Shown piece by piece: positions 2,974 through 46,675 of a stretch of DNA of 64,000 nt. Under the pieces are notes generated by a model. That model was given only the letters and a program-made list of their open reading frames with translations. It had not been told where the DNA came from and searched no databases. Position 1 is the first letter of the stretch. Each line of letters opens with the position of its first letter. Source of the stretch: a virus. The position numbers were made by a program, and so were the translations under genes. The DNA lies in the IMG/VR virus record IMGVR_UViG_3300028569_002801, positions 50,716 to 114,715 of that record; one strand, 5' to 3'.

Positions 2974-3261
2974 TTATTGGAAAATATAACCTACTCCGTC
3001 CATAAAATTAAAATATATATCATTTTGAAACGCCTTTTGGACCTCACAATTAATAACTGTCGAGTACACACATCCATTTGTATCAACAATTCTTAAATAA
3101 AGGTAATTTTCGTTTGGAAAAAAGTCATCAGTATCAAATATAATATTTGGTGGTATAAAGGTACTCCCTGAAACAAAAAAACAAGACGTGTTAGTTGAGT
3201 CACATATAAAAATATCATATGGTGGTTGTCCGCTCGTTACTCCTGTTATTTCTACGTTCAT
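2974..3261 (-). CDS. Small protein with one SprB-like repeat
   Basis: The 95 residues match a single SprB-type repeat: an opening TSGQPPYDIFICD (9-21), a hydrophobic core, then LRIVDTNGCVYSTVINC (55-71). The D-x-x-G-C ending is typical of gliding-adhesin repeats in Bacteroidota. The last 24 residues are aromatic and unrelated. A sense-strand TATTTATA box ends only four bases before the ATG. It resembles the first domain of the next gene upstream (3276-3845), suggesting duplication. Probably a tail decoration or adhesion module. Confidence 0.65.
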   Translation of the reverse strand: MNVEITGVTSGQPPYDIFICDSTNTSCFFVSGSTFIPPNIIFDTDDFFPNENYLYLRIVDTNGCVYSTVINCEVQKAFQNDIYFNFMDGVGYIFQ

Positions 3262-3265
3262 ATAT

Positions 3266-3273
3266 TATAAATA
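3266..3273 (-). promoter_or_regulatory. TATTTATA box, 4 nt from ATG
   Basis: Sense-strand TATTTATA then ATAT then ATG of the small SprB-like gene; identical spacing occurs at 53128-53135. Confidence 0.5.
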
Positions 3274-3275
3274 CT

Positions 3276-3845
3276 TTAAGGGCAAGAAGGTAAATCGGTT
3301 ACCACACCGGCAGTAACTTCTGCGATTGCATTATATGTTGGTGAACCACCTATTTTAACTAAAAAGTATCCTGTTAATAATGTTGGTGAACACCCAACAT
3401 TATTAGAATATAAAATAGAACCGATTTGAGGTTCACTTTCATCAAGATACGCCAAAAAAGCCGCATTAACGGCACAAGTACCACCTGTAACACAATTAAA
3501 TGCGGTACAGGCACTTAAAAATGAAGTATAAAAGTATCCCGTAATATTAGTTGAACTACCAAAAGGTGTGTAGTATGGATGTACTGTGCTTGGACCACAA
3601 GTTGGTGTCGGAGTTGGTGTAGGGGTTGGGGGTGGGTCATAACAAGAAACTAATTCAAAGTATTCACATCCTGTTGAATCAATAGTTTTAACCATTAATG
3701 TATTCGCACTTGAATAGAAGGAATTAAGTGTATATGTCCCTCCTGTTGTACTTGTTAAATAACAGTTATTTCCATATTCATCACATAGGTAAACACTCAA
3801 TGGTGGTGTTCCCCCTGTTGTTCCTGATATCGTAATAACACTCAT
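3276..3845 (-). CDS. SprB-like repeat plus Thr-Pro linker protein
   Basis: Of 189 residues, about 1-65 form one SprB-like repeat (TTGGTPPLSVYLCD ... IDSTGCEYFELVSC), 70-82 are a Pro-rich (Thr-Pro)n linker, and 85-189 are a Cys-rich domain of unknown type. The start overlaps the stop of the upstream 824-residue gene in a TAATG arrangement, so the two are probably translationally coupled and used in the same structure. The modular layout (adhesin repeat, linker, head domain) fits a tail-fibre tip or whisker. Function is inferred from architecture only. Confidence 0.7.
   Translation of the reverse strand: MSVITISGTTGGTPPLSVYLCDEYGNNCYLTSTTGGTYTLNSFYSSANTLMVKTIDSTGCEYFELVSCYDPPPTPTPTPTPTCGPSTVHPYYTPFGSSTNITGYFYTSFLSACTAFNCVTGGTCAVNAAFLAYLDESEPQIGSILYSNNVGCSPTLLTGYFLVKIGGSPTYNAIAEVTAGVVTDLPSCP
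3601..3633 (-). repeat. Thr-Pro coding tract
   Basis: Linker between SprB-like and Cys-rich domains of the 189-residue protein. Confidence 0.9.
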
Positions 3846-45200: not shown

Positions 45201-45386
45201 TTATTTATTATAACTTTCAATCAATTTATCTATAAAGTACCTTCTTTCAAATGAAGGCATTTTCATAACGTCACTATAAGAAAAATGACATTTACTTACT
45301 AAATAAAAAATTTCATCTAATAACGATTGTTTATATTGAGAAGAAAGGACGAAAAAACTCAACCCCAAAAGCGATGTCAACATCAA
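45201..45386 (-). CDS. Short ORF overlapping gp26-like gene; candidate +1 frameshift extension (tail assembly chaperone-like)
   Basis: The 61-residue frame overlaps the last 56 bases of the gp26-like gene in the +1 register. Its conserved-looking part, LLDEIFYLVSKCHFSYSDVMKMPSFERRYFIDKL, is split here as LLDEIFYLVSKCHFSYSDV and MKMPSFERRYFIDKL; the 'FSY-x-x-x-x-MP-x-x-x-R' layout is common in the downstream part of tail-assembly chaperones. It has no leader or box of its own, and the first ~17 residues are merely the other frame of gp26. I infer that it is mainly made as a frameshifted C-terminal extension at 45351-45360, giving a 295-residue fusion. Independent initiation at 45386 remains possible. 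Confidence 0.55.
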   Translation of the reverse strand: MMLTSLLGLSFFVLSSQYKQSLLDEIFYLVSKCHFSYSDVMKMPSFERRYFIDKLIESYNK

Positions 45387-46089
45387 CTCTTTCTCCAGAC
45401 GGGGCTATAATAGTTCTTTTAAGATTTATCGATGGCTCAGCTTCGTTTAATAATTTTTTTAGATTTTTAGAGTCTGAAATTGGCATTTGATTAACAAATG
45501 TGGCAATCTTCATTCTATCGGGGTCACCGTTTAATTCAACAATATGTTTTTCTAATCTTTTTGTTATAATTGGAGCAATCATGCCTTGTGGGTACGAGTC
45601 TTTTAATTTATCAATTTCATTAGTATCACCTAAAGTTAACAATTTACATTTAACTGAAGATTTAGACGATGGTAAAATAAATTCAAATAATCCATTTTCA
45701 TTAGGTTTATGAATAGTGTCTGTAAAATTTATTTCATCTAATTTTAGTGAGTACTCAAATTTTCTATTAGTTTGTGGATCGATTGATGATACTATATATT
45801 CAGGACCAAAAGATGTGTTTCTTAAAAATAACAAGACTGCCTTTGCGTCTGCATCTAATAATTGATTTACATCAAATCCAGGTTCGTAGATTTTGTTTTT
45901 TAATAGTGTAGTAATTAATCCGTCTATTGGGATATTTTGTGACATTAAAATGTTCTCATCATAGGCAGTTAAATATCCAACCTTTAATGATTCTTTTTTT
46001 GGTTTATAAAATACCCCTTTTGACGGTAACTTAACAACGTCGTGTGGTAAGTTAAAATCTTGTTGTCCATAAATTGCTGATTGATCCAT
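45331..46089 (-). CDS. 26: Baseplate hub protein, T4 gp26-like (T4_baseplate family)
   Basis: The 252 residues show the family features: an N-terminal LPHDVVKLPSKGVFYKPKKE (about 14-33), then YLTAYDENILMSQN (about 39-52) and a central FEYSLKLDEINF. T4 gp26 (208 residues) belongs to the hub/assembly set of the baseplate. Here it lies between the tail tube and tape measure genes, where many phages encode tail chaperones. The run TTTTTTC near the 3' end (45351-45357) followed by a rare-looking CGT codon is a candidate slip site leading into the short overlapping ORF. Confidence 0.75.
   Translation of the reverse strand: MDQSAIYGQQDFNLPHDVVKLPSKGVFYKPKKESLKVGYLTAYDENILMSQNIPIDGLITTLLKNKIYEPGFDVNQLLDADAKAVLLFLRNTSFGPEYIVSSIDPQTNRKFEYSLKLDEINFTDTIHKPNENGLFEFILPSSKSSVKCKLLTLGDTNEIDKLKDSYPQGMIAPIITKRLEKHIVELNGDPDRMKIATFVNQMPISDSKNLKKLLNEAEPSINLKRTIIAPSGERVDVDIAFGVEFFRPFFSI
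45351..45360 (-). other. Candidate +1 ribosomal frameshift site
   Basis: In the gp26 frame the minus strand reads GAG TTT TTT CGT. A +1 slip of the Phe tRNA from TTT to TTC improves its pairing and continues as GTC CTT TCT in the 45201-45386 frame, giving 246 + 49 residues. The -1 frame meets a stop within 12 codons, so only +1 is productive. Confidence 0.5.
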
Positions 46090-46134: not shown

Positions 46135-46162
46135 AAAAAAACCCCACTTTGTTAGTGAGGTT
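46135..46162 (-). terminator. Intrinsic terminator after tail tube gene
   Basis: On the minus strand AACCTCAC, a 7-base loop and GTGGGGTT (plus 46140-46147 and 46155-46162) form a stem with one wobble pair, followed by a T-run. It follows the gp19 stop. Confidence 0.88.
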
Positions 46163-46186
46163 CTTAAAATTATTTTTATAATTGTA

Positions 46187-46675
46187 TTAATATACTAAAA
46201 TACATCTATCAGGTCTCATTGTTGCTTTAACAGTGATTAATCCGTCTTCACTATATCCTAATGAATCAAAATCGACACTAGTTAAGAATACTCCTTGAAG
46301 AATCCACTTTTCAACAGCTACTCCCGTTGGGTCTAACATCTCTAAGTCAACGTCTTTTTTGTATCCCGCAGCATACCCCATACGTCCTGTTACAGACTCT
46401 GCATGTAGACGAACCCACTCCATTAACGCTTGTGACGCTGAAGGTCCAATAGGGTCACGGAAAGTAACATCCATGGACTCCCAATTAAATCGTCCTGCAA
46501 CATATGTAGAAGTGTTTAAGAATGGTATCTCAACATCTTTAATTGTAACTTTAGGTCTTGTAGTTGACTCAACATACCAAGAGTTAATCCCCAAAGAAGA
46601 AGGGAATGTCAATATAAACCTATTTTTTCTTTTAGGTTCGTATTGAAAGGGCATTTTCATTAATAAATCAGCCAT
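46187..46675 (-). CDS. 19: Tail tube protein, gp19-like
   Basis: The 162 residues equal T4 gp19 in size (163). The N-terminus MPFQYEPKRKNRFILTFPS, the segment WESMDVTFRDPIGPSASQALMEWVR (quoted as WESMDVTFRDPIGPS and ASQALMEWVR) and the ending MRPDRCILVY are diagnostic of contractile-tail tube subunits. gp19 stacks into the inner tube through which DNA passes. A terminator follows at 46134-46162, consistent with high, separately ended expression, and a TATTTATT box lies upstream at 46707-46714. Confidence 0.92.
   Translation of the reverse strand: MADLLMKMPFQYEPKRKNRFILTFPSSLGINSWYVESTTRPKVTIKDVEIPFLNTSTYVAGRFNWESMDVTFRDPIGPSASQALMEWVRLHAESVTGRMGYAAGYKKDVDLEMLDPTGVAVEKWILQGVFLTSVDFDSLGYSEDGLITVKATMRPDRCILVY

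Follow-up and report, generated by a model that had tools for sequence, protein, structure and literature searches.

The window analysed here is a stretch of 64,000 nucleotides from the virus record IMGVR_UViG_3300028569_002801, and the locus of interest lies on its minus strand, where a gp26-like gene follows a tail tube protein gene and precedes an extension in a second frame (Table 1). The gp26-like gene has 252 codons, with its stop at 45331-45333, and its 3' end reads GAG TTT TTT CGT; the +1 frame is free of stop codons from 45404 down to a stop of its own at 45203-45201. The product encoded in the +1 frame after the putative shift, VLSSQYKQSLLDEIFYLVSKCHFSYSDVMKMPSFERRYFIDKLIESYNK, comprises 49 aa, and the fusion would measure 295 aa. 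The first-pass annotation had proposed a +1 slip at this run and had placed it between the tail tube and tape measure genes. The upstream half of that placement is borne out by the match of the neighboring gene to phrog_4542, and the tape measure is assigned by position only: the 605-aa downstream gene gave no significant family or pairwise match in profile searches and BLASTP, including a BLASTP comparison with the tape measure of Flavobacterium phage immuto, a phage in which the next large gene after the gp26-like gene is annotated as encoding the tape measure.

Table 1. Features of the gp26-like locus, in window coordinates
Feature	Position	Strand	Remarks
gp26-like gene	45331..46089	minus	zero-frame product 252 aa (putative short chaperone form, G-like); PF12322, phrog_150, AlphaFold
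Shift site TTT TTT CGT	45349..45357	minus	codons 245-247 of gp26-like gene; CGN Arg in A site
+1-frame extension	45201..45350	minus	49 codons and stop; T-like domain, matches T4 gp51 C-terminus
RNA hairpin (putative), just 5' of shift site	45360..45407	minus	outer stem 45400-45407 with 45360-45367, CCCC:GGGG core
Hairpin inner stem arms	45383-45390 with 45368-45375	minus	
Hairpin bulge UCUGGAGAA	45391-45399	minus	
Tail tube protein gene, directly upstream of gp26-like gene	46187..46675	minus	phrog_4542, 92.5 bits
Next gene downstream, 605 aa	43346..45163	minus	presumed tape measure, by position only
Terminator-like hairpin between tail tube and gp26-like genes	46137-46165	minus	

A protein-pattern scan of viral contigs returned 117 relatives, of which the best 80 were kept, and TTTTTTCG stands in frame at the end of the gp26-like gene in the window and in 78 of these 80, which were fetched by protein similarity. 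In one of the two exceptions (L072, from the same contig as L102) the gp26 frame is broken upstream and the site is intact, and in the other (L079) the sequence ends before the shift site. Among the 79 sequences with the site, the window included, a complete +1 extension of similar length is present in 76; two of the others are cut by contig ends (L024 and L076), and in L018 the extension runs on without a stop after position 3732 into the next gene, apparently through a deletion when compared with L017. Pairwise differences in the extension amount to 0.337, 0.255, and 0.505 at positions 1, 2, and 3 of the +1-frame codons, the corresponding values for gp26 itself being 0.319, 0.216, and 0.482; by this measure the +1 frame of the extension evolves as protein-coding sequence does, varying mostly at the third position, and it carries a conserved SY..D...MP..ER-like pattern.

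A second allele, TTC TTT CGN, emerged when TTC TTT CG was searched for downstream of a loosened hairpin pattern; it is present in 21 contigs (17 distinct), in all of which the CCCC and GGGG blocks of the hairpin described below are present. Its longest T run is three, and the +1 frame and the extension are both kept (the extension of L237 is cut by a contig end); Streptococcus phage GXN1 likewise has TTC TTT CGT with a +1 extension. Relatives without the TTTTTTC run had been named in the first-pass annotation as evidence that would tell against frameshifting; such relatives do exist, but they retain both frame and extension, and the idea survives them. The alignment of the overlap in relatives that the same annotation had called for shows the slip site and the frame to be conserved, and, at the level of sequence comparison, confirms that the frame relation and the dual coding at the end of the gp26-like gene are real.

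The codon after TTT TTT is CGN in 41 of 41 distinct fusions (22 CGG, 12 CGT, 6 CGC, and 1 CGA), and elsewhere in the same genes CGN accounts for 19 of 302 Arg codons, with CGG and CGC absent. CGN also occupies the site in 99 of 99 loci of a wider thinned set, most of which were fetched with patterns demanding CG, and it is the 79 unselected sequences that carry the weight. The choice of CGG or CGC may partly reflect the +1 protein, the third base of CGN being the middle base of the first +1 codon. In-frame TTT CGN is found once in the 38 window ORFs of at least 100 aa, at the shift site, with about 3.6 occurrences expected from codon counts, and within the 99 thinned gp26 genes it is found at the shift site alone. 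The locus has the features of a UUU_CGN site, with a P-site UUU, an A-site CGN, and a second ORF in frame +1, in the two alleles TTT TTT CGN and TTC TTT CGN; a literature search of open-licence papers yielded no description of such a +1 site in a phage tail chaperone.

Against PF12322, the window protein scores 26 bits (cut-off, 24.5), T4 gp26 215.6 bits, and T4 gp51 177.5 bits, and BFVD returned matches to gp26 and baseplate hub proteins. The phrog_150 profile has 282 positions, gp26 proteins stopping near 235 and gp51 running to 280; the zero-frame protein matches it with 41.2 bits (E, 2.6e-10) as far as position 234, and the frameshift fusion with 56 bits as far as position 278, a gain of 15 bits with the extension. 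In hhalign comparisons, the N-terminal 200 columns of gp51 align on gp26 at 99.5%, and gp51 is therefore a gp26 paralogue with about 48 extra C-terminal residues; the value for the short gp51 of cyanophages and relatives against the gp51 tail is 96.7%. The window-clade extension reaches only 46-70% against gp51 C-termini, in register and with controls at most 1.2%, and the zero-frame gp26 of the window clade only 2.8% against Straboviridae gp26. On these profile comparisons, the extension counts as a homologue of the T4 gp51 C-terminal domain.

AlphaFold gave a pLDDT of 85.4 for the short form and of 33, too low to be of use, for the fusion, which was modeled without an alignment. The best PDB chain in Foldseek was the HK97 tail assembly chaperone, at a weak E of 0.49, and when 991 PDB chains were realigned only 3, from 2 entries, reached a Z of 2: YqbN, which we take to be a chaperone of the XkdN kind (Z, 5.4), and the HK97 tail assembly chaperone (Z, 5.3). 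The earlier reading of the extension as chaperone-like gains weight from the T4 gp51 C-terminal match and from the fact that the sole two structural matches are tail-chaperone proteins. We infer a chaperone function and read the locus as the probable tail assembly chaperone locus of a contractile-tailed phage.

The putative RNA hairpin (positions counted from the first T of the run) ends its 3' arm 2 nt before the first UUU. Two blocks within it are nearly invariant, GCCCCGTCNGGAGAA at -48..-34 and GGGG at -9..-6; GGG at -9..-7 occurs in 49 of 49 distinct sequences, compared with 56 of 454 Gly codons elsewhere, and same-codon conservation peaks at the hairpin blocks (ratio, 2.0 in the best ten-codon window). 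The +1 frame would be untranslated upstream of the shift, and silent constraint there therefore points to a nucleic-acid signal. RNAalifold, applied to 32 sequences, pairs the blocks in a hairpin that has an inner helix and a bulge of nine bases. In 99 sequences, standard pairs make up 89.2% versus 83.2% after shuffling, doubly changed cells number 99 versus 39, and covariation is 0.268 versus 0.174, slid versions attaining at most 0.106; none of 500 shuffles reached the observed value of any of the first three measures. On a tree of 97 taxa, for which the hairpin region was left out, 13 compensatory changes fall at -49:-4 and 12 at -31:-13, both pairs of third-position partners, compared with 0 to 5 at 28 control pairs of third positions that are not partners, and the 2 changes at -46:-7 are both compensated. 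When a scan required the Ala third base to differ and set no condition on that of Gly, it yielded 16 contigs (4 distinct); each of them has GCA with GGT, such that A-U replaces C-G. The 120 matched stretches listed all have the same length of 56 nt, though a gap of 15 to 35 nt was allowed.

Single sequences fold no more stably than their shuffles (z, 0.05, -1.52, -0.42, and -0.31), RNAalifold on 99 sequences keeps six outer-stem pairs only, and the pair -49:-4 is unformed in 33 of the 99. A ribosome positioned at the shift site would hold the 3' arm in its mRNA exit path, and the stem could therefore not form in full there. Rfam gave no match in 45250-45550, and the terminator scan did not list this hairpin, the loop of which is longer than the scan permits. 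The bulge, UCNGGAGAA (45391-45399), is nearly invariant in the 99 sequences, silent positions included. The contigs that combine the hairpin with UUU_CGN seem to form one clade; distant relatives have other shift codons, and the hairpin was not seen in them. Compensatory third-position changes across a large clade support the hairpin, to which we ascribe a presumptive role, and the signal looks new in joining a rare CGN Arg codon in the A site to a hairpin that ends 2 nt before the first UUU; among open-licence papers, we found no covarying 5' hairpin described at a natural +1 site.

We suggest that the locus very probably specifies a tail assembly chaperone of the G/GT type in two forms, through +1 frameshifting at UUU_CGN. 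Most ribosomes would read gp26 to its stop and produce the short form, and a fraction would pause while peptidyl-tRNA-Phe sits on the P-site UUU and a rare Arg codon, CGN, occupies the A site; this tRNA would then slip one base forward onto UUC, and 49 more codons would be translated to give the gp26-extension fusion. By analogy with lambda gpG and gpGT, coating of the tape measure protein would fall to the short form and recruitment of tail tube subunits to the extension. The hairpin may favor the forward slip: it could refold once the ribosome has passed or keep the ribosome from moving back. We give an even chance to the more specific proposal that, in a large phage clade without Shine-Dalgarno (SD) usage, a natural 5' stem-loop stimulates the UUU_CGN +1 shift by refolding as it leaves the ribosome and biasing the P-site tRNA forward, in place of the SD-like or 3' stimulators of bacteria. 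That the shift is ribosomal and is +1 rather than -2, its efficiency, and the role of the hairpin are all matters that we infer from a sequence that fits +1 and -2 alike.

The same fusion could arise if a polymerase, stimulated by the hairpin, dropped one U of the T6 run and ribosomes then read the transcript normally. Stem-loop-mediated slippage is already known, from parts of two sources (PMC5009743 and PMC6211511), the hairpin adjoins the T run with a gap of 2 nt and, like that of the Roseiflexus IS630 case, has the look of an intrinsic terminator, and T6 is present in all 78 readable unselected relatives. The TTC TTT CGN relatives, however, and GXN1 likewise, keep the frame, with the hairpin core also kept in those relatives, and in this allele, with at most three T in a row, the transcript would not be expected to slip by one base; ribosomal +1 shifting on UUU, with an A-site CGN, fits both alleles. 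Slippage as such needs no conserved rare Arg codon, though 3' context can matter. On the evidence of these relatives, transcriptional slippage on the T run was rejected as the sole mechanism, and we consider hairpin-stimulated slippage quite improbable. An assembly or sequencing error is a natural suspicion at a homopolymer run in a metagenomic contig, but the frame relation recurs in the contigs counted above, the three without a complete extension being cut or running on, and +1-frame extensions are seen in cultured phages too; the relatives already refute such an error, which we rejected as having practically no chance of being the cause. The +1 ORF might instead be a separate small gene with its own start or coupled translation after the gp26 stop, and some relatives and the window do have ATG or TTG in the +1 frame near the shift site, as cyanophages have a homologous short gp51 annotated as a gene of its own. 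Yet no start codon is conserved: of 96 thinned complete extensions, 48 lack an ATG between the point where the +1 frame opens and extension codon 15, and in 3 the same stretch contains neither ATG nor GTG nor TTG. The frame is open for merely 2 to 80 nt upstream of the site in the thinned loci, SD-like leaders are lacking in the window genes, and a separate gene would leave the slip site and the rare Arg codon unexplained. The first-pass annotation had also named a second ORF with its own leader and start as counterevidence; the second ORF has no conserved start, and the separate ORF was rejected on the start codons of the 96 thinned loci; we hold it to be very improbable.

The test of the leaders is a weak one, as an SD-like 4-mer is present in 0 of 38 leaders of window ORFs of at least 100 aa, with 0.9 expected from shuffles. 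These leaders are A/T-rich throughout. GGGG 5 nt upstream of the first UUU and GGAG in the bulge made SD-driven stimulation a candidate, but by the same weak test the window genes are without SD leaders. A further possibility, somewhat unlikely in our judgment and nonetheless a serious one, is that the fusion is made by +1 frameshifting and the hairpin serves another purpose, such as RNA stability or protein binding. Only one clade has the hairpin, which seems to be missing from other phages whose +1-frame extension lies at this place, and the near-invariance of the bulge has no explanation. The distance from hairpin to site is nevertheless fixed in all 120 listed stretches, for which protein constraint may partly account, and synonymous conservation peaks exactly at the hairpin.

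Ribosomal +1 frameshifting at UUU_CGN, the reading that we prefer, can be set beside the frames of the wider family, which were obtained as single readings of the DNA that follows gp26-like genes in records from cultured phages and metagenomes, with no statistics. A +1-frame extension is present in Mel-JY01 (L082), LIS04, GXN1, LR756508, SP-15, the MAG contigs L258 and L259, and Flavobacterium phage immuto. L258, L259, and Mel-JY01, of a more distant branch, have the +1 frame at TTT TTT TGG in the homologous position, with Trp and not Arg, and in the cultured phage immuto (L260; gene 2974-3714) the +1-frame extension follows TTT CTT TGG, with GGGG at the same distance, no clear hairpin, and an annotation without the long form. 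S-SCSM1 is in the +1 frame, and in Cygsa01 the short gene starts at an ATG that overlaps the gp26 stop. An open -1 frame follows T TTT TTC in S-RIM8, Bakedbeans, and Atu_ph07, and LR756511 has a -1-frame extension. In Synechococcus phage S-RIM8 (L091, at about 3169), L092 (about 3175), and L089 (about 3807), the -1 frame is open into a gp51-tail-like domain; the short gp51 gene of the S-RIM8 annotation has probably been given too late a start and may belong to a product of -1 frameshifting. A scan of genome contigs returned only two distant relatives and so no host, and a Bacteroidota-type promoter pattern was not enriched in the window (2 found, 2.71 expected); a Bacteroidota host is a guess from the SD-less leaders and the Flavobacterium relative only.

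Vladimirov et al. (2022) reportedly dealt with the tail assembly chaperones of T4-like phages. Frameshifting by -1, -2, or +1 is established for tail chaperones, and the relevant section of a 2016 review excepts T4 (PMC5009743); some T4-like phages carry separate short and long chaperone genes, according to a passage in PRFect that cites Vladimirov et al. 2022, and poly-T -1 signals in T4-like chaperone genes are already known from a passage that cites the same work (PMC12846349). The chaperone role and the relation to T4 are not new. With lambda G/GT, as outlined in that review (PMC5009743), the window shares a locus beside the tail tube gene, a short form and a frameshifted long form, and a T-like C-terminal domain, but lambda shifts by -1 and the window clade by a predicted +1 at UUU_CGN, and the two are likened by layout. 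The gp26 domain (PF12322) is common to T4 gp26/gp51 and the window, and the window extension matches the gp51 C-terminus, whereas in T4 the two are separate genes, of which one, a paralogue, encodes the C-terminal domain in frame, and the window has one gene with a putative frameshift. The first-pass annotation contained neither this equivalence, which is already in print, nor the upstream hairpin, nor the likeness to UUU_CGN sites.

Sites of that kind, in which a UUU Phe codon is followed by a slow CGN Arg codon and the second ORF is in the +1 frame, are those of influenza A virus PA-X and the amalgaviruses. These examples are from eukaryotic RNA viruses, whereas the window is from a phage and has an upstream hairpin; for PA-X, a stimulatory signal is described in the review section (PMC5009743) as not evident. 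The SARS coronavirus stem-loop, 4 nt 5' of a -1 site, also ends a few nucleotides upstream of its shift site and can, according to the same section, stimulate +1 shifting in synthetic constructs (PMC5009743), but its natural effect is to lower -1 shifting, and the window hairpin stands at a putative natural +1 site. In the +1 frameshift of prfB (RF2), known in part from PMC10885494 and in part as general background, the P-site tRNA also slips forward beside a slow A site; prfB, however, employs a stop codon and an SD-like element, and no SD usage is seen in the window.

In summary, the locus ties the T4 gp26/gp51 pair to single-gene versions that would depend on frameshifting, by +1 in this clade and, in some cyanophages, with the second frame at -1, and the annotation of window-clade phages misses the predicted long chaperone form. 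The action of 5' stem-loops on shifting is called mysterious in the section of the review that treats it (PMC5009743), and a covarying hairpin beside a putative natural +1 site, with many natural variants, would make that action directly testable. The locus may thus be a natural place to study, in a large group of uncultured phages, how structure behind the ribosome could promote forward slipping.
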